A stretch of DNA of 34,084 nt from Candidatus Methylarchaceae archaeon HK02M2. Lineage in GTDB: Archaea > Thermoproteota > Nitrososphaeria > Nitrososphaerales > JACAEJ01. The translations under genes and the position numbers were made by a program. Below the pieces are notes generated by a model. The model saw only the letters and a list, made by a program, of their open reading frames with translations, was not told the DNA's origin and made no database searches. The stretch is taken from contig JAKLZG010000064.1 in NCBI GenBank assembly GCA_024256165.1, positions 1-34,084 of the forward strand, read 5' to 3'. The first letter of the stretch is position 1. Every line of letters starts with the position of its first letter. Below, piece after piece: positions 7,022-30,225 of the stretch.

Positions 7022-9010
7022 TTACACTGTTTTAGCCGAAATTTCTATAATGCGCCTCTCTTCTCTCTTTTCATTCAATGTTTGAATTCCTAATCGTTGT
7101 TCTGCTGATCTTAAAATAGCGCCTAGCATATCTTTATACGACATACCCGCAATTTTTGCCATCTTTGCAAGATGTCCATCCCAGCACCATCCTGGATTGG
7201 GGTTCACCTCAAGGAGCTTTGGGTTTCCCTCACAATCCAGCCTCCAATCGAACCGACAGTAATCCCTACACTCCAGCCTTTCAAACAACTTCAAACAGCA
7301 TTCCACGATCAACTTTTCTGTCTCCCTTGGTAGCTGGGCAGGAACGGACTTGATTTTCCAATATGGTGACTCTGGAAGCCACTTGGCCTCATAACCGCAG
7401 ATTCTAGGGAGCTCTTTTGGAAGCTCCGAGTAATCTTCCTCAGTAATGGGTAGTACTATGTAAGATTCAGGAGGGTTTCCAATTACTCCCACGCTGAGGT
7501 CCTTCCCTGTAAGGAATTCCTCGACAAGAATGGGTTTACCGTAGCCAAATTTCTCCCTTATTTCAGAAATGGCATTCATAAGCTCCTCTACACTATTTGA
7601 CACACTCCTTTGCGTTATTCCGAAACTGGAATCACCAAAGTTTGGTTTTACGATAGCAGGGAAGCCAAAGGAAAGTTCAAAGGTTCTATCTTCTGGCTTA
7701 ATAAAGAAAGCTTTAGGCACAGGGATTTTCATCTCCTTAGCAATTCCTCTGACAAGTGATTTATCATAACAATAAGCAAGACACTGAGGTCCAGAGCCTG
7801 TGTAGGGGATGCCAAGCATCTCTAGCAAGGCGGGTATATGAAGCTCCTTTACAGCATCGTTGCTGTAACCCTCATCACACAGATTAAAAACGAAATCGAT
7901 CTTCCTTTTCAGTCTAATCAATTCTTGGATTAAATTATCATGATTACTCAGGTATGAAAACTGGTAGCCTTTAAGTTCCCCCAAAGTTGACTTCAACTGA
8001 TCGATTGTGTATAAATCGTCGTCATCGAAGATGGAGCAGGGCTTTAAAGTGTCTAGTTTACTAGGGTCGCCCAAAATTACTATCGCCCTCTTCACCGCCT
8101 CTTTTACTCTCTTTTTAGTAGGCTTCCATTCTTTCTTGACCACAGCGGTAAATATATAGCGACGCTCCATCATGCCAAAGTCCTTTTTTCTATGGGAACT
8201 AGAAGAAATTTCACTCTCAAGAGAGATATCACTGAAGTTTGCTGTTTTCAGAAGTTGGGTCAGGCCTTTCTTGGTGTAAAGCCTTTCCGAATAGAATTGG
8301 TCGGCAACCACGCCCTTTTCCACATGGGTAATTACTTCCCTTGATATTAGACGCTCTCCATCAACGGAAAGGGAGCGCTCCCTGCATACAAAATAATTCT
8401 TATCTATCCATTCCCAAGAGTGAGTTTGAAATTTTTTCTTTAAATATTCCCCATCAGCGACATCGATGAGTACCCTGCCCCAAGGTTTTAAAACTCTAAA
8501 TATCTCCTCTAAAACCCTTAGGTCATCTTGGATGGTATCGAAATAGCCGAAACTGTTCCCCAGTATCAAAACCGCATCAAAGGTATCGGGTGGATATGGT
8601 AGTTTTCGAGCATCGCCCTCTCTAAATCTAATATTCAGACCATATCTTTTAGCAGACGATTTAGCCTTTTGTATTAGATAATGGGATCGGTCTAATCCTT
8701 CAACGTATTTGAAGCCTCTCCTTGCCAGTTCCAGAGAATGGCGTCCCTGACCACAACATAGATCCAGAATCTTATCTTCAGGCGAGAGTTTTAGAATCTT
8801 TGAGAACGTATCTACTTCTCTACGGGTTATGCTTTGATCGTCAACTAAATCTGCATCTGTTTTCAGGTAAAGTGAATTGAAGATACGCCTCCACCAGTCT
8901 GAGGGAACTCTTTCTTCGAGGTGGGAAATAGGACCAAGGCATTTTTTCTCCTTGACTCTTCTTTCTTGAGGTAATTTTTCTTTGAATGATCTTACCATTA
9001 TCATCATCAT
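7022..9010 (-). CDS. Fusion: SAM-dependent methyltransferase + D-Ala-D-Ala ligase-like ATP-grasp enzyme
   Basis: A 662-residue two-domain enzyme. Residues about 60-290 are a class I methyltransferase: SAM loop ILDLCCGQGRH at 81-91, acidic end of strand 2 in EGLDRS, then FDAVLILGNSFGYF. Residues about 310-640 are a D-alanine-D-alanine-ligase-like ATP-grasp unit: VFNLCDEG, then IPALLEMLGIPYTGSG, then FPAIVKPNFGDSSFGI for ATP, ending with the metal site LLEVNPNPG (about 599-607). The pair suggests it both ligates and methylates a small acid or amino acid. Archaea generally lack murein, so cell-wall D-Ala-D-Ala synthesis is unlikely. The gene is richer in G+C than its neighbours (32 of 60 bases at 7201-7260, against 15 of 60 at 6121-6180), which hints at transfer. 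The start is one of several tandem ATGs; a 14-base palindrome precedes it. Substrate unknown. Confidence 0.85.
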   Translation of the reverse strand: MMMIMVRSFKEKLPQERRVKEKKCLGPISHLEERVPSDWWRRIFNSLYLKTDADLVDDQSITRREVDTFSKILKLSPEDKILDLCCGQGRHSLELARRGFKYVEGLDRSHYLIQKAKSSAKRYGLNIRFREGDARKLPYPPDTFDAVLILGNSFGYFDTIQDDLRVLEEIFRVLKPWGRVLIDVADGEYLKKKFQTHSWEWIDKNYFVCRERSLSVDGERLISREVITHVEKGVVADQFYSERLYTKKGLTQLLKTANFSDISLESEISSSSHRKKDFGMMERRYIFTAVVKKEWKPTKKRVKEAVKRAIVILGDPSKLDTLKPCSIFDDDDLYTIDQLKSTLGELKGYQFSYLSNHDNLIQELIRLKRKIDFVFNLCDEGYSNDAVKELHIPALLEMLGIPYTGSGPQCLAYCYDKSLVRGIAKEMKIPVPKAFFIKPEDRTFELSFGFPAIVKPNFGDSSFGITQRSVSNSVEELMNAISEIREKFGYGKPILVEEFLTGKDLSVGVIGNPPESYIVLPITEEDYSELPKELPRICGYEAKWLPESPYWKIKSVPAQLPRETEKLIVECCLKLFERLECRDYCRFDWRLDCEGNPKLLEVNPNPGWCWDGHLAKMAKIAGMSYKDMLGAILRSAEQRLGIQTLNEKREERRIIEISAKTV

Positions 9011-13863: not shown

Positions 13864-16083
13864 TTGGTCTTCCTGAATCCCGTTATTGTAGACTTGACAA
13901 AAGATGAAATCGATAGAGCTAGGAAGATGTTAGGAAGGGAGCCTAATGATCTGGAGTTGGCTATGATAGATGCTGAATGGTCGGAACATTGCAGTTATAA
14001 GTCATCCATCCCTGTTTTAAAGCAAATCCCAACAAAAGGACCTAGAGTTATAATAGGACCTGGATATGATGCTGGTGTTGTCGAAATAGGCGCTGGTTAT
14101 TTGGTCACTTTGCATATAGAGAGCCATAATCACCCATCTGCGATCGACCCTTATGGAGGGGCGGCAACGGGGATAGGAGGTGTTTTGAGGGACATCCTTT
14201 GCATGGGCACAAGACCTATCGTCCTTTTAGACTCTCTTAGGTTTGGTAATATAGAAAATAGTTCTCATTCTAGGTGGCTCTTTAAGCATGTTGTGAGGGG
14301 CATTTCTGACTATGGAAACTGTGTTGGTGTGCCAACAGTTGCAGGGGAAATCGAGTTCGATGAATGCTTTGAGAGAAACTGCCTTGTAGATGTAGTCTGC
14401 CTTGGATTGGGTAGAAGTAAAAATCTTGTTCTTGCAGAGGCAAAACATCCTGGAGATAAAGTTATACTCGTTGGTGGCAGTACTGGAAGGGATGGAATTC
14501 ATGGAGTAACATTCGCATCAAGAGTATTGACTGGTCAATCGGACAAGGAGCGATCAGCAGTACAGATTCCAGATCCCTTTATGAAAAAACTCATAATCGA
14601 AGCAACATTAGAAGCCGTTGAAAGAGGTCATGTCAGAGGTCTAAAGGATCTAGGTGGGGGAGGTCTTACTACTGGTCTATCAGAGATGGCTGAAAAAGGT
14701 GGATGTGGAATCGAGATTGAACTATCAAAAGTCCATTTACGTGAGAAGGATCTTAGCCCTATAGAGATAATGATATCAGAGTCCCAAGAGAGGATGGTCT
14801 TTATAGTAGAGCAAGGTTATGAGAGAGAAGTCTGTGAGGTATTTAGGAAGTATGAGCTGCCATACAGTATAATAGGCGAAGTTACTGATAGTGGAAACCT
14901 AACAGTCAAAATGGAAGAAGAAGAGCTAGCTAACGTCCCAGCAAACATATTGGCTAAAGCACCTATAATTCATAGAAGGTTGAAAGAGCCAGATTATCTA
15001 AAGAATTTAAATGAAATTAAAAAACCAGAAATCTCATCCGATCTCTTATCCATATTTTCAAAGTTAATGTGTAGTCCAAATATTGCTAGTAGGAGTTGGG
15101 TTTATGAGCAGTATGATAATGAAGTCGGTATAAGGACTGTGGTGAAGCCAGGTCAGGGAGATGTTGCAGTAATGAGATTGCCTGATGACTCTTTCTTGGC
15201 CATAAAAGCAGATGGAAATAGTAAGCATTGTTATCTAGACCCCTACAATGGGGCAGCAGGATGCTTATCCGAGTCGTGCAGAAACCTTATCTCTGTAGGT
15301 GCTGAGCCATTGGCTTTCGTTGACCACCTTCAATTTGGCGATCCAGGGAATCCTGAGGTCTTCTGGACTTTTAGCGAATCGGTAAGGGGCTTGGCAAACT
15401 ATTCAAGGGCTATAGGGCTACCATGTGTGGGAGGAAAGGTTAGCTTTTATAATGAGGATAAGGTAAAGAATAAAGCGATCAAACCTTCCCCCGTTATAGC
15501 AGCGATAGGTAAGATAGAGGATCAAGGATGGATAACAACGATGGACTTTAAGCATGAAGGGAATTATGTGGTAATTCTAAGTGAGACGAAATCAGAGATG
15601 GGTGGATCAGAGTATTATGAATATATCCATAATATAGTTGGAGGAATTGTGCCGCAGATCGACTTTATCAAAGAAAAGAAGACTTTAAACGTAGTCAAAG
15701 ATATCATAAGAAAAGGACTCGTTAAAGCTGTACATGATATATCTAAAGGTGGAGTGTTGATAGCTTTAGCGGAGATGTGCATCTCAGGGGGTATTGGTGC
15801 ATCGATCGATTGCGCAAAGACTCCTTCTTATGATCTAAGAATCGACGAACTCCTCTTCTCAGAGACTCATTCTAGGTTTATAGTAGAGGTGGAACGTAGT
15901 CTTATGGATGAACTCTTAAGAATAATGAAGAATTTCGATATTGTATGTGGTGTAATAGGTAAAGTTGGGGGAGATGAACTGGAAATCTCTAATAAAGATG
16001 ACAAATTGATGTCTATATTGATATCTGATTTACGGGATCGTTGGGAAACGTCCTTGCCAAGAAGTATGGGTGAAGTAAAATGA
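13864..16083 (+). CDS. purL: FGAM synthase large subunit PurL (small, three-subunit type)
   Basis: The synthetase subunit of FGAM synthase, 739 residues, which is the usual size when PurS and PurQ are separate. Near the start DAEWSEHCSYKSS is diagnostic. ESHNHPSAIDPYGGAATGIGGVLRD forms the nucleotide site (split here: ESHNHPSA then GGAATGIGG). Later come GLKDLGGGGLTTGLSEMAE, ADGNSKHCYLDPYNGA, and the C-terminal KAVHDISKGGVLIALAEM of the second PurM-like half. The start codon is TTG at 13864 with GGTGA just upstream; five bases separate it from purQ. Its stop overlaps the purF ATG, so all these genes should share one mRNA. Confidence 0.95.
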   Translation: MVFLNPVIVDLTKDEIDRARKMLGREPNDLELAMIDAEWSEHCSYKSSIPVLKQIPTKGPRVIIGPGYDAGVVEIGAGYLVTLHIESHNHPSAIDPYGGAATGIGGVLRDILCMGTRPIVLLDSLRFGNIENSSHSRWLFKHVVRGISDYGNCVGVPTVAGEIEFDECFERNCLVDVVCLGLGRSKNLVLAEAKHPGDKVILVGGSTGRDGIHGVTFASRVLTGQSDKERSAVQIPDPFMKKLIIEATLEAVERGHVRGLKDLGGGGLTTGLSEMAEKGGCGIEIELSKVHLREKDLSPIEIMISESQERMVFIVEQGYEREVCEVFRKYELPYSIIGEVTDSGNLTVKMEEEELANVPANILAKAPIIHRRLKEPDYLKNLNEIKKPEISSDLLSIFSKLMCSPNIASRSWVYEQYDNEVGIRTVVKPGQGDVAVMRLPDDSFLAIKADGNSKHCYLDPYNGAAGCLSESCRNLISVGAEPLAFVDHLQFGDPGNPEVFWTFSESVRGLANYSRAIGLPCVGGKVSFYNEDKVKNKAIKPSPVIAAIGKIEDQGWITTMDFKHEGNYVVILSETKSEMGGSEYYEYIHNIVGGIVPQIDFIKEKKTLNVVKDIIRKGLVKAVHDISKGGVLIALAEMCISGGIGASIDCAKTPSYDLRIDELLFSETHSRFIVEVERSLMDELLRIMKNFDIVCGVIGKVGGDELEISNKDDKLMSILISDLRDRWETSLPRSMGEVK

Positions 16084-17507
16084 GGGAAAAATGTGGAGTA
16101 ATTGGGGCTTATTCCTTAGGTGACTATAACATCTCACAATTTTTGGTTAGGGGGCTTGAGAGCCTTCAACATAGAGGTCAAGAATCATGGGGAATCGCTG
16201 TAATTGGCCACGAAGTTTACAAGAAACTAGGTCTTGTCATGAACGATTTAGAAGATACTTATAATGTTGGGAAGATGCATGGGAATGTGGGTATAGGTCA
16301 TGTTCGCTACTCCACAAAAGGCAGTACAACAATTGAGAATAGCCACCCTATAAAGATAGGCAAATCACTTTACATAGCTCATAATGGAACTGTAGTGAAT
16401 GCAGAAGAATTGGCAAGTAAAGTATCAGAACAATTTTACGTTTCTACTTCAGTGACAGATACAGAGCTTGTTGGTTTTAGGCTAACTCAATTATTTACCA
16501 AATATAAGGATTGGCAGACAGCTTTTAAAATATTGAATAGAGAAATCGACGGCTCTTACTCGATGGTCATTTTGACAGAGAATGGTGAGCTTTTAGCAGC
16601 AAGGGATGAAAGGGGATTCAGGCCCCTTTGTATAGGATATCAAGAAGAAAAAGAAACTTATTTTATCGCATCAGAGAGCTGTGCCCTTGACTTTCTTGAA
16701 GCGAGTTTAATAAGGGACGTAAAACCTGGTGAGCTAGTCAAGATAGACAAAGATGGTTTTTCAACCTTTATATTCTCTACAGGTATAAAGCATGCACATT
16801 GCCCCTTTGAGTATACGTACTTCTCCTATCCTAGCTCTTATTTAGAGGGAATAAACGTCTATATTGCAAGGAAGAGGATCGGGGCTGAGCTAGCTAAAAA
16901 GTACCAATCTGATGGCGATGTGATTATTCCGGTACCTGACTCAGCTAGACCTGCTGCTCAAGGGTTCTCAGTAGAATCAAAGATTCCTTTCGAAGAGGGG
17001 TTGATGAAAGGTAGATACAGAAAGAGAGGAAGCTTAAGGAGCTTCATAGAGCCTATTCAAAAAAGGAGAGAGGAGATCGTTAAGAAGGTGACCGCCATAA
17101 GATCTACTGTAGAAGGAAAAGATGTAATAGTCGTGGATGACAGCATTGTTAGAGGTACGAGCTCATCTATAATTGTCGGAATATTGAAGAAAGCAGGAGC
17201 AAAGAAGATACGTCTCTTTTCAACATTCCCTCCAATAAGATACCCTTGCTATACTGGAATCGACTTTCCTACTCAAGAAGAATTGATAGTGTATAAAGTA
17301 TGCAAAGATGAGAAGGACTTGAATCTCATCAATAAAGCGGTTGCATCCGCCCTAGAAGTAGACTTCGTTGGTTATAACGATATAGAAGGTCTAAGTAGAG
17401 GGATAGGATTACCTATCAAAGAGTTCTGCCTTTCATGTGTAACAGGAGACTACTCATGCCTCAAATACCCTCTAAAATTTCGGACGAGAAAGGAGATGAA
17501 AGGTTAG
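16080..17507 (+). CDS. purF: Amidophosphoribosyltransferase PurF (active form)
   Basis: Catalyses the first committed step of purine synthesis, making phosphoribosylamine from PRPP and glutamine. The N-terminal nucleophile is in MREKCGVIGAYS, so four residues would be removed to expose Cys5. HRGQESWG, HVRYSTKGS and AHNGTVVNAEEL complete the glutamine site. The PRPP loop is VIVVDDSIVRGTSSS. Four cysteines match the Fe-S ligands of the Bacillus-type enzyme: HCPFEYTYF, RYPCYTGID and CLSC in FCLSCVTGDY. The usual RYVGRTFI loop reads RYRKRGSLRSFI here, a small insertion. ATG overlaps the purL stop (ATGA). It is followed after one base by a paralog lacking the nucleophile. Confidence 0.95.
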   Translation: MREKCGVIGAYSLGDYNISQFLVRGLESLQHRGQESWGIAVIGHEVYKKLGLVMNDLEDTYNVGKMHGNVGIGHVRYSTKGSTTIENSHPIKIGKSLYIAHNGTVVNAEELASKVSEQFYVSTSVTDTELVGFRLTQLFTKYKDWQTAFKILNREIDGSYSMVILTENGELLAARDERGFRPLCIGYQEEKETYFIASESCALDFLEASLIRDVKPGELVKIDKDGFSTFIFSTGIKHAHCPFEYTYFSYPSSYLEGINVYIARKRIGAELAKKYQSDGDVIIPVPDSARPAAQGFSVESKIPFEEGLMKGRYRKRGSLRSFIEPIQKRREEIVKKVTAIRSTVEGKDVIVVDDSIVRGTSSSIIVGILKKAGAKKIRLFSTFPPIRYPCYTGIDFPTQEELIVYKVCKDEKDLNLINKAVASALEVDFVGYNDIEGLSRGIGLPIKEFCLSCVTGDYSCLKYPLKFRTRKEMKG

Positions 17508-17508
17508 A

Positions 17509-18822
17509 TTGGCTGGAATATTCGGATTCTATGCTTTTGGTGATGAAAGGGTAAACTGGGATTCATCCAAGTTCATCTACTATGGATTGAGTGCCCTCCA
17601 GGGGAGGGGTCAAGAGTCGACAAGCTTGGTTATCTACACTCATCATGATAATACTGAACCGCTAAGATGGATTTCTGGTGAGGGTCTTGTAGATGAAGTA
17701 TTTGGAAAAATAAAGCAAGATTATATGAAGGGTTTTCTAGGGATAGGGCAAGTGTCTGCTGAGAAAAGAGACTATGCCATAAAGGTAGAGAAGCCCATAG
17801 AACTTGCATTGGTGGGAGATGGAAAACCAGCATTACACGATAACAGGCAGAAATCCTTCCAGATATTTGCTGAGATGCTATCTAAGAAAATATCTGAACT
17901 GAGAGACCCCTTAGAGGCTACTAAAACATTGATAAGAGAGGTGGGAGGTGGCTACTCTTTTATAACCCTAACAAAGGATGAGAAAATGATCTGTGGAAGG
18001 GACATTCAAGGAATAAAACCATTGGAAGTTGGGGCCATAGGTTTCGATATTGGTGCAGTAGCATCTGAAAGCTCAGCCCTTGATGTAATTGGGGCAGAAC
18101 AATCAGGTTTTGTAAAACCAGGAGAAACAGTCATGTTCGATCCTTTGAGTATAGAGAAAAGACACATTAAAAATAAGACAGCTTACTGCAGTTTTGAGTA
18201 TGTCTATCTAGCAAGGCTTGACTCATATTTGAACTCGATCTCTGTTAGCAATGTTAGAGATATGATAGGTCAAAGGTTGTCAGAGGAGAATCCTGTCAAA
18301 GCTGAAGTTGTTATAGGCGTTCCCAATACAGCCATACCTTTCTCTATGTCATATTCAAAGAATAGCGGAATTCCAGTAAAGTACGGATTCACTAGGACAG
18401 GAAGGCATGTAAGAAGCGCAATAAAGCCCAGCCAATTTGATAGGATAGTTGGAGTTCAGTTGAAGTTGAACCCAATACGGACGTCTGTTGACGGTAAAGA
18501 AATAATTCTGATCGACGATAGCGTTGTAAGGGGAAATACTCTAAGAAGCACTGTCTATAATCTAAAGAGAAAGGGCGCAAAAAAAGTTCATGTAAGGATA
18601 GGTAGCCCTCCTTTAATATCAAGATGTCCATTCGGAACAGAAGTTCCTCCAGAAGATGAATTGATAGGTAAAGCCTTATCGAACGATGAGATTGCTGAGA
18701 TTATAGGCGCAGACAGTTTTGCCTATCTTTCTATCGATGGGCTATGTGAATCTATAGGTTTACCCGAATCCTCCCTTTGCTTGGGTTGCTTTACAGGAAA
18801 ATATCCTGAGAGGCCTACATGA
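17509..18822 (+). CDS. PurF paralog without glutaminase catalytic residues
   Basis: A 437-residue relative of PurF directly after purF. The start TTG (17509) gives MAGIFGFYAFG: alanine stands where the catalytic cysteine should be. No in-frame upstream start exists because TGA lies at 17497. Other glutamine-site motifs are gone too: HVRYST becomes QVSAEK and HNG becomes GDG. The PRPP loop is intact (EIILIDDSVVRGNTLRST), as is QLKLNPIRTSVDGK. The Fe-S cysteines remain (YCSFEYVYLA, SRCPFG, SLCLGC). AGGAGATG precedes the start at SD distance. It could be an ammonia-dependent transferase, a regulatory partner of PurF, or bind PRPP as a sensor. Its intact frame and tight spacing argue against decay. 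Confidence 0.9.
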   Translation: MAGIFGFYAFGDERVNWDSSKFIYYGLSALQGRGQESTSLVIYTHHDNTEPLRWISGEGLVDEVFGKIKQDYMKGFLGIGQVSAEKRDYAIKVEKPIELALVGDGKPALHDNRQKSFQIFAEMLSKKISELRDPLEATKTLIREVGGGYSFITLTKDEKMICGRDIQGIKPLEVGAIGFDIGAVASESSALDVIGAEQSGFVKPGETVMFDPLSIEKRHIKNKTAYCSFEYVYLARLDSYLNSISVSNVRDMIGQRLSEENPVKAEVVIGVPNTAIPFSMSYSKNSGIPVKYGFTRTGRHVRSAIKPSQFDRIVGVQLKLNPIRTSVDGKEIILIDDSVVRGNTLRSTVYNLKRKGAKKVHVRIGSPPLISRCPFGTEVPPEDELIGKALSNDEIAEIIGADSFAYLSIDGLCESIGLPESSLCLGCFTGKYPERPT

Positions 18823-18977
18823 TAATAAAGTAAGAATTATCAGTCTATTTTCAAATAGAAAGGAAGGATAATACATTTTGAACAAGGATAATAAATATGA
18901 ACAAATATTTTTTATGATAAAAATGTTTGTTGGGGCTACCCAAATAACTAATATGTGAATTATTGGAAGGAAATCTT
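18823..18977 (+). promoter_or_regulatory. Leader of purD with direct repeats and a hairpin
   Basis: AAGGATAATA occurs at 18864-18873 and again at 18884-18893, exactly 20 bases apart. A hairpin follows: AACAAATATTTTT (18900-18912) pairs with 18919-18931 with one wobble pair and a six-base loop. GGAAGGAAA just before ATG 18978 is the SD. The region may hold a promoter, a terminator for the first purine transcript, or an RNA control element. Confidence 0.45.
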
Positions 18978-20504
18978 ATGAAGATAATGGGCCTAGGCAA
19001 CGCATCAAGAGAGCATGCAATCGCAGAGGCTTTAGAAAGAAGTGATCACCATCCAAGAATCTTCTGGCTGGGTGATATAAGAAACCCTGGTATATTTAAT
19101 ATTTGTAAAAAATCCGGAGGCGACTTCGCTCTATCTAAGACTACAGACCCAGAGAAGGTCGTAGAGTATGCAAAGAGGTGGTGTGTAGACTTTGTAATAA
19201 TCGGGCCTGAGGAACCGAACTTTCATGCAGTTCCAGATGAGCTAGAGAGAAAAGGGATACCTTGTGTCGGTGCGAGTAGAGATGTAGCTATAATAGAGAT
19301 GTCAAAGGCTGAGATGAGGCGCTTGCAATGGGAGTATGGGATGAGTGGAAAGCTGCTCTTCAAGACATTCAGGTCTTCTAAAGAGGCTTACTCTGTCCTT
19401 GAAAAATACTCTGATACCCTAACATGGTTACAAAATGTAGCCTTGAAGCCTGCAAGACAGGCAGGTGGAAAAGGTGTAAAGGTTGTAGAAGATCAGCAAT
19501 TATACCTTCACGATGAGAAGCAGAGGTTCAAGTCTAAACATGCTGACTGGTTAGAGGGATATATGAAAAGTTATTCTGATATTGAAGATAAGATACTCGT
19601 AGAGGAGAAAGTATGGGGTCCTGAATACACTCTGCAGTGCTTCACTGATGGACGCTGCATAAAGGGTATGCCTTTAGTCCAAGACAACAAGCACGCTCAT
19701 GAATTTGACATAGGTACAGAGACAGGTGGCATGGGTTCTATATGTGGTTCAGGATTCACGTTGCCATTCATAACAAAGAAAGAGTATGAAGAGTCGTTGA
19801 AGATAGTAAATTCATTGGTCCGTGCTATACAAGATAAGGTTGGTAAGAGGTACCATGGTATGGTTGCTGGTCAGATGATGTTAACAGAGATAGAGGGTCC
19901 TACGATAATCGAGATGTATTCTAGGCTTGGCGATCCTGAAGCGTTGAATGTCTTAAACACATTAAAGACAGACTTTGTTGATATATGCTTGGCAATATTA
20001 GACGGTAACTTATCAAAGTTAAATGTTGAATTCGATAAGAGATCCACTGTAGTTAAAGCTATTGCGCCAAAAGGCTATCCTAATAATAGAAAGTTGGCTA
20101 AAAACCACCCTGTATTTGTGGATGAGCAAGCAATAAAGAGGGGGGGATGTAAGTTTTATTGGGGCAGTGCTGATCTCAACGAAGGCGGGGAGATACTATC
20201 AGCGGGATCAAGGCTTGTTGAAATACTCGCTATATCTGATGAGATAACAAAAGCAAGCAAGATCATTGATAGATGTGTACCTTATATAAAACTTCTAGAT
20301 GGTTGGGGTTTATTTTATAGGAGCGATATAGGATCTCCTGAACTAATGTGTAAAAGAATGGATGTTGCAGATCGTGTGAGGATGCTTTACCAATATAGGA
20401 GAGATAAGGGTATTCTTGGGAAGAGGATCGACTGGCTTCCAAAAGTCGGGAAGATGGACCCTGTAGCTCTGCTTAGAGATGAATTATCGAAAAAGAGTGA
20501 ATGA
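18978..20504 (+). CDS. purD: Phosphoribosylamine-glycine ligase PurD (archaeal long form)
   Basis: ATP-grasp enzyme for step 2 of IMP synthesis, joining glycine to phosphoribosylamine. MKIMGLGNASREHAIAEAL corresponds to the N-terminal GxGGREHA motif. VDFVIIGPEEP follows, then VALKPARQAGGKGV for ATP, HEFDIGTETGGMGS, and EMYSRLGDPEALNVL at the metal site. At about 508 residues it is some 70-80 longer than bacterial PurD; the excess lies partly in an insert after the ATP loop and partly in a C-terminal extension (YQYRRDKGILGKRIDWLPKV). ATG 18978 is preferred to TTG 18963 because GGAAGGAAA lies between them as the SD. The next gene starts one base after its stop. Confidence 0.9.
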   Translation: MKIMGLGNASREHAIAEALERSDHHPRIFWLGDIRNPGIFNICKKSGGDFALSKTTDPEKVVEYAKRWCVDFVIIGPEEPNFHAVPDELERKGIPCVGASRDVAIIEMSKAEMRRLQWEYGMSGKLLFKTFRSSKEAYSVLEKYSDTLTWLQNVALKPARQAGGKGVKVVEDQQLYLHDEKQRFKSKHADWLEGYMKSYSDIEDKILVEEKVWGPEYTLQCFTDGRCIKGMPLVQDNKHAHEFDIGTETGGMGSICGSGFTLPFITKKEYEESLKIVNSLVRAIQDKVGKRYHGMVAGQMMLTEIEGPTIIEMYSRLGDPEALNVLNTLKTDFVDICLAILDGNLSKLNVEFDKRSTVVKAIAPKGYPNNRKLAKNHPVFVDEQAIKRGGCKFYWGSADLNEGGEILSAGSRLVEILAISDEITKASKIIDRCVPYIKLLDGWGLFYRSDIGSPELMCKRMDVADRVRMLYQYRRDKGILGKRIDWLPKVGKMDPVALLRDELSKKSE

Positions 20505-20937: not shown

Positions 20938-21062
20938 GTGTTAAAGTCAAGCTTTTAAAGAAGGACAAAGTCAAAGATGCGAAAACTTCCAAATTAACGA
21001 AACTGTTTTACAAAACCTGTGCTTATAGAAAAACAAATCTCGACTAATAAAAAGGTGAATCG

Positions 21063-28083: not shown

Positions 28084-29166
28084 TTATGTAATGAAATTCT
28101 CCAATCCAACATCTTTTACGATATGTATCGTCTGCTCCATCTCATCCCTACTTAGTCTTCTCTTTAGTTCTGGTATCTCATGAGCCCTCCAATGGGGAGT
28201 ATATTGCCACATAACATTGACCCTAACATACCTTCCTAGGTTCTTAACTATCCACTCAACTATGGGTCTGAAGCAACATTCTATATGTTTCGGGAGAACC
28301 AATATGCGTATAATTAACTCTCCATGTTCTTTAGCAATGAGATGGTTTCTCGTACAAGTTTCCCAATATTTTGGTGCATCGGATATCCTTATTGCACAAT
28401 CGTTATTTCCATACTTGAAGTCTAACAGATAAACATCAGCCCACTGAGCTAGTAATCGAGAAGAAGGGTGACTGTAGTAGCTATTAGAGTTCCAGACTAT
28501 AGGTAAATTTTCCTTAATCTCCCTTGATATCTCCAACCAGTGATAAAGATAAGGAGTAGGGTCTCCACCTACCATATTCAAGTTCCTACAACCCCTTGAT
28601 TTGGCTTTATCTACCTGACTCGCAACCTCTTCAAATTCGTATTGAGTGCCTGCCTCTTTCCATTGGCTGATCATCCAATTCTGACAATGAAGACACGTCA
28701 TAGTGCAACCAATAGTGAACACGGTGAATGATGGTACAAGCTCAGGCTCTTCTCCATAATGGTCGAACATAGTCGAAACAGGGAAATCCATACTGCAACC
28801 ACAGTACTCCGTTTTGCCTTTTAATCTGTTGACTGCACACGCGTGTATGCAGAATACACATCTCTCAAGCACTTTCTTTGCTAAAGCAATCTTGAGATCT
28901 AGTAGACTATTCTCAGCAAGATCATTGATTTCTTGGCCAGAATCGACCTTTTTTATATAATTATTGAAATCTTCAACTGATTTGTTGTGTGCTTTCCACA
29001 TCTCAGCCGTGCTTTTTCCTTGAAAATCGATGGAAAAAGTCTTTAATAAATTGAACTTTGCAATCTTCTTATCGAATATTATATCAAAATATCGCGATAA
29101 AGAGGCTTTGCACTTCTTATCATAGAGTACAGTAAAAGAATCTTGGCGTAACGCTTTCCATATCAA
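28084..29166 (-). CDS. Radical SAM protein, PflX/COG1313-like activase homolog
   Basis: A 360-residue radical SAM enzyme. The cluster motif CTMTCLHC in TVFTIGCTMTCLHCQNW is preceded by the cysteine-rich pattern of this subgroup: CVFCIHACAVNRLKGKTEYC. Downstream are NMVGGDPTPYL and LLDFKYGNND, as in the family. These proteins resemble pyruvate formate-lyase activase but their targets are mostly unknown. It carries about 100 residues before the cysteine-rich region, a helical N-terminal extension. Start TTG 29166; it follows the AmrS-like gene by 18 bases on the same strand, suggesting an operon. No glycyl-radical enzyme is found in the window. Confidence 0.88.
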   Translation of the reverse strand: MIWKALRQDSFTVLYDKKCKASLSRYFDIIFDKKIAKFNLLKTFSIDFQGKSTAEMWKAHNKSVEDFNNYIKKVDSGQEINDLAENSLLDLKIALAKKVLERCVFCIHACAVNRLKGKTEYCGCSMDFPVSTMFDHYGEEPELVPSFTVFTIGCTMTCLHCQNWMISQWKEAGTQYEFEEVASQVDKAKSRGCRNLNMVGGDPTPYLYHWLEISREIKENLPIVWNSNSYYSHPSSRLLAQWADVYLLDFKYGNNDCAIRISDAPKYWETCTRNHLIAKEHGELIIRILVLPKHIECCFRPIVEWIVKNLGRYVRVNVMWQYTPHWRAHEIPELKRRLSRDEMEQTIHIVKDVGLENFIT

Positions 29167-29184
29167 ATTTCACCTTCACCTATA

Positions 29185-30225
29185 TTAAAACCATCTAATA
29201 AAACTTCGAGTTTTCACTTCACCTATTATATTGATATTAAATCCACAGTTAGGACACTTTTTATCCTTTGATAGATCGATCTTAAGCACATCGAAACCCG
29301 TCCTTCTTATTAAAAGATGTTGGCAATTTGGGCAGTATGTATTTTCACCCTCGCCTACCACATTCCCTATATAGACAAATTGTAATCCCTCTTCCTCAGC
29401 GATATTCTTCGCCTTTAACAAAGTCTCAAATGGTGTTGCATATATGTCTGTCATCTTATAGTGGGGGAAGAAACGTGAGAAATGTAAAGGTGTGTCTGAG
29501 CCTAAACAATCCTTCACCCATGTTGCAAGCTGTTTTATTTCGTCCAAAGAATCATTGATGCCAGGGATTATCAAGTTCGTCACTTCAATGTGTGTACCTT
29601 TTCTCTTCATCAATTTTGTTGCTAAAAGTACAGGTTCTAAACTGCCCTTACAATAAGTGCGATAAAAGCCTTCAGTAAAGCCCTTTATATCGACATTGGC
29701 AGCATCTATATATTTAACTAAAGGTAAAAGAGCTTCCTCTGTTATATAACCATTCGTAACAAGTACATTATGAATTTTATTCTCATTCGAGAGCTTGGAT
29801 GTCTCATAAACGAATTCATACCAAAGGAGTGGCTCGTTGTAAGTGTAGGAGATGGATGAAGAGTTTGCTTTAAGAACTCTTTTAATGATTTCTTCAGAAG
29901 TGATTTCATGTGAATAGACTTCGCCAGGAGATGCTTGGCTTATCTCCCAGTTCTGGCACCATGGGCAGAATAGAGTGCATGATAAACTTGATATCGAGTA
30001 TGTATCGCTACCAGGCCAGAAATGAAATAAAGGTTTCTTTTCTATTGGATCGATAGCCTCTGCAGTAGTTGTGCCATATATCAAAGTGAAAAGAGCCCCA
30101 TTTCTGTTCTCTCTTACTCTACATACTCCCCTTTTTGAGTTCTTTATGGTACAACCTCTTGGACAAAGCTTGCATTTCACATCAGTACTAATAAGCTTCG
30201 TGTAGGCCATTGCCTCTTTTTCCAT
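29185..30225 (-). CDS. amrS: AmmeMemoRadiSam-type radical SAM protein (AmrS/COG1180)
   Basis: A 346-residue radical SAM enzyme close to the AmmeMemoRadiSam radical SAM component. N-terminal zinc-like motif CKLCPRGCTIKNSKRGVC, then IEKKPLFHFWPGS, then the cluster motif CTLFCPWCQNWEISQ. SSSISYTYNEPLLWYEFVYE follows, then VTNGYITEEAL, NVDIKGF and HFSRFFPHYKM. The C-terminus adds a zinc ribbon with CPNC pairs. The partner proteins Memo and AMMECR1 are not in this window. The ATG at 30225 is the first of two possible starts (the other at 30210). It is divergent from the PRPP synthetase gene with 92 bases between. Biochemical role unknown in the family. Confidence 0.9.
   Translation of the reverse strand: MEKEAMAYTKLISTDVKCKLCPRGCTIKNSKRGVCRVRENRNGALFTLIYGTTTAEAIDPIEKKPLFHFWPGSDTYSISSLSCTLFCPWCQNWEISQASPGEVYSHEITSEEIIKRVLKANSSSISYTYNEPLLWYEFVYETSKLSNENKIHNVLVTNGYITEEALLPLVKYIDAANVDIKGFTEGFYRTYCKGSLEPVLLATKLMKRKGTHIEVTNLIIPGINDSLDEIKQLATWVKDCLGSDTPLHFSRFFPHYKMTDIYATPFETLLKAKNIAEEEGLQFVYIGNVVGEGENTYCPNCQHLLIRRTGFDVLKIDLSKDKKCPNCGFNINIIGEVKTRSFIRWF

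Follow-up and report, generated by a model that had tools for sequence, protein, structure and literature searches.

A PurF homolog without a glutamine site is paired with a divergent PurD in Thermoproteota and some Asgard archaea

RESULTS

An intact purF is followed after one base by a second PurF homolog

We analyzed a 34,084-nucleotide stretch of Candidatus Methylarchaceae archaeon HK02M2 (contig JAKLZG010000064.1, referred to here as the window), which carries on its + strand a purine operon that runs purQ (13142), purL (13864), purF, purF', purD, purE (20479), purM (21063) and purP (22103), with gene names other than purF and purD that we take in part from established knowledge. The purF gene (16080–17507, +; 475 aa) encodes an intact glutamine-PRPP amidotransferase (EC 2.4.2.14) in which C5, HVRYST, HNGT, TDTE and VDDSIVRG are all present, and its product scores 364.9 bits against TIGR01134, the NCBIfam equivalog for purF, above the cut-off of 350 bits. 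The window lacks purC between purE and purM (20938–21062); the sister genome G002 has purC at this place (L061:6222–7058), and G006 likewise lacks it. Elsewhere in the window, on the - strand, are a 662-aa ORF (7022–9010) in which a class I methyltransferase domain is joined to an ATP-grasp domain resembling that of D-Ala-D-Ala ligases, an arrangement unusual for an archaeon, and two neighboring radical-SAM proteins (28084–30225).

The gene directly behind purF (17509–18822, +; 437 aa, TTG start), which we call purF', had been described in a first-pass annotation as a tandem PurF paralog that has lost its glutaminase and kept its PRPP and Fe-S sites, and the sequence bears out each element of that description. 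A single base separates the end of purF at 17507 from the start of purF', and the ORF reads (M)AGIFG from the TTG, with the Ala2 codon (17512–17514, +) where PurF has its N-terminal nucleophile Cys. An in-frame TGA (17497–17499) is followed only by AAG-GTT-AGA before the TTG, so purF' has no upstream start; a mis-called start that conceals a Cys is ruled out by this stop four codons upstream. The glutamine-site motif HVRYST (PurF residues 74–79) is replaced by GQVSAEK, such that GQVS (residues 80–83; 17746–17757, +) stands where the site has HVRY, and HNG is replaced by GDG within GDGKP (residues 103–107; 17815–17829, +). Retained on the same strand are the PRPP loop LIDDSVVRGNT (residues 334–344; 18508–18540), the pyrophosphate loop P-N-T (residues 272–274; 18322–18330), which is P-[EDN]-T in all PurF', and the Fe-S ligands Cys227 (18187–18189), Cys373 (18625–18627) and Cys424 with Cys427 (CLGC; 18778–18789). 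The flexible catalytic loop (GFTRTGRHVRSAIKPSQ..GVQLKLNP, residues 293–322; 18385–18474, +) includes the invariant R302 and K319, as well as R296 and G298 at the positions of the B. subtilis feedback residues K305 and R307.

As a whole, PurF' scores 254.1 bits against TIGR01134, under the 350-bit cut-off, and Pfam matched its phosphoribosyltransferase domain and no glutaminase domain. Its AlphaFold model (pLDDT 92, pTM 0.90) aligns from end to end with PurF of B. subtilis and of E. coli; thus, the glutaminase domain persists as a fold. The gene is under purifying selection, with dN/dS of about 0.12 between the window and its nearest relative (0.09 for PurF and 0.06 for PurD).

The glutamine site is lost and the PRPP site retained across the family

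We aligned 64 PurF' and 70 PurF proteins from Thermoproteota, the PurF set also including Asgard sequences. The glutamine-site Cys, Arg, Tyr, Asn and Asp were each present in 70/70 PurF proteins, compared to 0 (Cys), 0/64 (Arg), 0/64 (Tyr), 3/64 (Asn) and 13/64 (Asp) in PurF'. We found 65 orthologs of PurF' across Thermoproteota, so the gene is neither confined to the window nor represented by damaged frames in its relatives, and among the approximately 61 with an aligned N-terminus none has Cys at the nucleophile position. In contrast to the glutamine site, the PRPP loop (DDS..G), the pyrophosphate loop (P-x-T) and flexible-loop residues R302 and K319 were each conserved in all 64 PurF', and the four Fe-S cysteines in 63–64. 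The alignment thus supports loss of the glutaminase with retention of the PRPP site as a conserved property of PurF'. In one family the N-terminal domain has eroded further, leaving a protein of 378 aa.

Mutation of K305 or R307 in B. subtilis PurF relieves nucleotide feedback (PMC4223553). Since the K305 position is occupied by Arg, Leu or Thr in PurF' and the R307 position by Gly in 57/64, feedback control of PurF' probably differs from that of PurF.

The flexible-loop Lys (K328 in B. subtilis), present in 64/64 PurF', is found in only 52/70 PurF and is replaced by Trp, Met or Glu in 15/70. Trp or Met occurs at this position in the true PurF of many Nitrososphaeria (for example, L064:8003–9445 and L076:8961–10397), including genomes in which it is the sole PurF. 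These replacements prompted us to consider a reciprocal split, with PurF acting only as glutaminase and PurF' only as phosphoribosyltransferase, which we rejected because the change also occurs in genomes without PurF'.

PurF' is a separate clade in which some Asgard members retain the Cys

PurF' is found across Thermoproteota and in some Asgard archaea. In the tree it formed one clade (64 rows, SH-aLRT 100), and when Asgard sequences were added, all PurF' (53) were split from all PurF, bacterial sequences included (32), with support of 100/100. The PurF' and PurF of the window are 36% identical. Thus, while purF' is a tandem paralog in its position one base behind purF, its history is a different one: it is no recent copy of the adjoining gene, and by these trees PurF' is an ancient clade distinct from all the PurF proteins sampled.

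The catalytic Cys is retained in relatives only among Asgard archaea, where 7 of the 12 PurF' (L230–L235 and L237) keep the N-terminal Cys yet lack the glutamine-site Arg-Tyr; in these seven the GATase_7 domain is still recognizable (51 bits in L230). They are possible intermediates in the loss of the glutaminase. Their position nested inside the PurF' tree suggests that the glutamine site was already broken in the ancestor of PurF' and that the Cys was lost several times afterward; regain of the Cys in Asgard PurF' seems less likely.

Family f8 (G027, G036, G057, G013, G044 and G051) has a second weak PurF-like match (26–28% identity, mostly over residues 111–424), which is distinct from PurF'.

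The gene behind purF' encodes a divergent, long PurD

The neighboring purD (18963–20504, +; 513 aa as called, with the aligned start MKIMG at 18978) was overlooked in the first-pass annotation and belongs to the story of purF'. It encodes the sole PurD in the window's genome, and its score of 289.2 bits against TIGR00877 (GAR synthetase PurD) is barely over the cut-off of 288 bits. This "long" PurD has the ATP-grasp GAR synthetase fold and domain order of PurD (TIGR00877; 2YRW, 1GSO), but differs from it in three motifs and a C-terminal tail, and forms a separate clade on a long stem. KADGLAAGKGV becomes KPARQxGGKGV, GPNTGGMG becomes GPETGGMG (GTETGGMG in the window) and IExNxR becomes IExYSR, which in the window is E-M-Y-S-R (PurD residues 317–321; 19911–19925, +), with Tyr for the ATP-grasp Asn of E-x-N-x-R. 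All long PurDs have E-x-Y-[SAT]-R, whereas the ordinary PurDs compared have E-x-N. The tail (20337–20501, + in the window), which ordinary PurDs lack, carries a conserved R..Y..R and W-x-P pattern. The Asn of E-x-N binds magnesium in ATP-grasp enzymes, so that a Tyr in its place is unusual and suggests an altered active site in the long PurD. GAR synthetase activity is expected of the long PurD, since the genome has no other PurD.

PurF' and the long PurD occur together and are replaced together

We found PurF' in 14 of 201 genomes of the order, and exactly these 14 gave near-full-length scores with the long-PurD profile (at least 892 bits, or 300 bits for one copy cut by a contig end; the next PurDs reached at most 159 bits). 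The only further long PurD in the order is a fragment at a contig start (G081). Among 398 genomes sampled from the phylum, many of them incomplete, 73/73 genomes with a strong PurF' also carry a long PurD. Another 42 genomes have a long PurD, and 40 of them have a second PurF-like gene, which in representatives of families f19, f26, f32, f35, f38, f39 and f56 proved to be PurF' when profiles were compared. The two exceptions are G281, in which the PurD is cut by a contig end, and G385, which has no PurF' and whose PurD of 458 aa lacks the tail and carries the residues of ordinary PurDs (KPDGL, GENTGG, E-x-N).

Beyond Thermoproteota, 12 of 228 genomes of an Asgard phylum have a long PurD (622–718 bits; all others at most 337), and all 12 have both PurF and PurF'. 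Among Asgard genomes with an ordinary PurD, three of the four checked carry a single PurF-like gene, while the fourth, G925, shows an additional, weaker match. (The Asgard phylum here is that of a Prometheoarchaeum record, and L033–L035 are Nitrososphaeria/Thaumarchaeota MAGs; lineage names are inferred from such records.) In 247 genomes of the Methanococcoides phylum, no PurD scored above 338 bits.

On several occasions, one of them within a single genus, the pair of PurF' and the long PurD has been lost or replaced as a whole. In that genus, the pair is present in G006, while G004 and G005 lack PurF' and carry, at the corresponding place right after purF, an ordinary purD that is unrelated. 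Within family f14, the pair is found in G019, G032, G067 and G077, while G048 and G055 carry an ordinary PurD without PurF'. G009 and G025 have neither PurF' nor the long purD, and their operon passes from purF to purE. The PurD that stands in place of the pair in G004 (L072:10074–11672) and G005 (L073:9452–11050) is a 532-aa protein with a long ATP-grasp insertion and a very long branch in the PurD tree.

Gene order and rates of change point to the same partner. PurF' lies within 200 nt of purD in 58/61 loci and of purF in 46/51 loci that have both, and it adjoins purD also where purF lies elsewhere. The order purF-purF'-purD holds in most genomes; in G012 and G026, purN and folD separate purF from PurF', which still adjoins purD. 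PurF' and the long PurD each form a single clade, and their two trees are almost congruent and contain the same major groups. Across 44 genomes, PurF' distances correlate at 0.79 with those of PurD (partial correlation 0.68 with PurF removed), compared to 0.59 with those of PurF (0.27 with PurD removed). Thus, presence and absence, adjacency and rate covariation all track the long PurD, which makes PurD rather than PurF the apparent obligate partner.

An apparent PurF'-PurD gene fusion in G218 (a 971-aa open frame) was ruled out, as the frames differ. The AlphaFold model of a read-through PurF'-PurD fusion had two good domains (pLDDT 89, pTM 0.60) and no confident interface; since the alignment behind it was shallow, at 15 paired rows, and it had no control, the pTM of 0.60 neither supports nor refutes a complex.

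DISCUSSION

From these patterns we consider it very probable that PurF' and the long PurD form a functional unit, and probable, with less assurance, that PurF' is active on PRPP. The overall explanation we favor, to which we give an even chance, is that PurF' works with the adjacent long PurD by taking PRPP and ammonia and handing over phosphoribosylamine. Under this proposal, PurF' would add ammonia to PRPP, drawing either on free ammonia or on that set free by the adjacent intact PurF, and would pass the unstable phosphoribosylamine straight to the long PurD. The altered active site of the long PurD and its C-terminal tail would be adaptations for taking up this intermediate, and PurF would stay the glutamine-using enzyme. 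Ammonia-dependent synthesis by PurF' with direct hand-off is, as a specific claim, possible but rather short of probable, and we regard as doubtful the stronger version, in which PurF' and the long PurD are a two-subunit synthase that converts PRPP, ammonia, glycine and ATP to glycinamide ribonucleotide with no release of phosphoribosylamine. Since 7 of the 12 Asgard PurF' keep the Cys, what is essential to the unit may be something other than the loss of the glutaminase.

We considered several other explanations. Genes that are inherited together as one operon block can be linked for that reason, but the repeated joint replacement argues against such inheritance as the whole account. This bears on the idea, proposed in 2011, of a free-standing ammonia-dependent PRPP aminotransferase that serves when ammonium is plentiful, for which the link to the long PurD would be operon inheritance only. 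The invariant PRPP site of PurF' fits this idea, as does the ammonia-dependent activity retained by E. coli PurF with its Cys changed to Ala (cited in PMC3261824), but it leaves unexplained both that PurF' is never found with an ordinary PurD and that the two are replaced jointly, in one case within a genus, and we find it fairly unlikely. Somewhat unlikely, too, is a PurF' that is a non-catalytic scaffold or a PRPP/nucleotide sensor, bridging PurF and the long PurD and regulating or channeling the phosphoribosylamine made by PurF. Such a role would suit the prevalent gene order, the eroded N-terminal domain of the 378-aa proteins, the altered feedback positions and the suggestion of a missing factor for A. 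aeolicus, in which PurF-PurD channeling was too weak in vitro (PMC3261824). A PRPP sensor, too, would be expected to keep its PRPP site unchanged; however, it is the whole catalytic set that is invariant in PurF', down to the flexible-loop Lys so often missing from PurF, and this is more than mere binding should call for.

The PurF fold is oligomeric, and PurF' adjoins purF in most loci that have both, so a PurF heteromer, the partnership suggested in the first-pass annotation, in which PurF' takes ammonia from the glutaminase of PurF has some appeal. It is nonetheless improbable, as PurF' tracks PurD in its presence and covaries more weakly with PurF, and as PurF retains a PRPP site of its own in genomes that have PurF' and functions by itself in relatives that lack it. 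What stands of that earlier interpretation is the lost glutaminase, the retained PRPP site and a plausible dependence on ammonia; as partner, the evidence favors PurD over PurF. Finally, while the missing glutaminase motifs are what a decaying pseudogene from a recent tandem duplication of purF would show, the low dN/dS (0.12), the intact frames and a separate ancient clade in dozens of families rule this out, and we give it essentially no credence.

PurF' itself is known. According to the survey of Brown et al. 2011 (PMC3261824), it occurs in every Crenarchaeon studied, with Ala or Val for the Cys and clustered with purine genes; its ammonia-dependent activity was offered there as an untested guess, and the widespread duplication of archaeal purF was called unexplained and worth investigation. 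The window gene likewise lacks the N-terminal Cys and lies beside a true PurF near purine genes. The PurF' of that survey form their own cluster; the window gene falls in one clade with the PurF' of single-contig Thermoproteota genomes. It fits the 2011 definition, a match made by description and not against the paper's named crenarchaeal sequences. The accessible part of the survey differs from our results in treating Crenarchaeota only, with no link to a divergent PurD and no function assigned. Our search of the open literature, with subscription papers outside it, found no later explanation of PurF' or of the purF duplication. Thus, what appears new is the presence of PurF' in Nitrososphaeria and Asgard archaea, together with its strict coupling to a divergent PurD.

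PurF' and PurF (TIGR01134; B. subtilis 1GPH/1AO0, E. coli 1ECB) share the fold, the PRPP and pyrophosphate loops and the four Fe-S cysteines of the B. subtilis type; unlike PurF, PurF' lacks the nucleophile Cys and the glutamine-site Arg-Tyr or Asn, is altered at the K305/R307 positions and scores below the cut-off. Transfer of phosphoribosylamine from PurF to PurD is thought to require contact (PMC3261824). The channeling described for E. coli and A. aeolicus PurF and PurD concerns the same intermediate and the same two steps as our proposal for PurF' and the long PurD, but it involves no dedicated extra PurF, and no stable complex was found.

Neither PurF' nor the long PurD should be labeled as ordinary PurF or PurD in annotation. 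The strict pairing with an altered PurD provides the first concrete lead on PurF', namely that it belongs with PurD and that both enzymes changed together, and it makes their action as a working unit a testable idea. The pairing is also relevant to how phosphoribosylamine, which is too unstable for free diffusion, is managed in cells, many of which are thermophilic. If PurF' and the long PurD do prove to be a two-subunit synthase, they would constitute a distinct archaeal form of the first two steps of purine synthesis, operating beside a conventional glutamine-using PurF.
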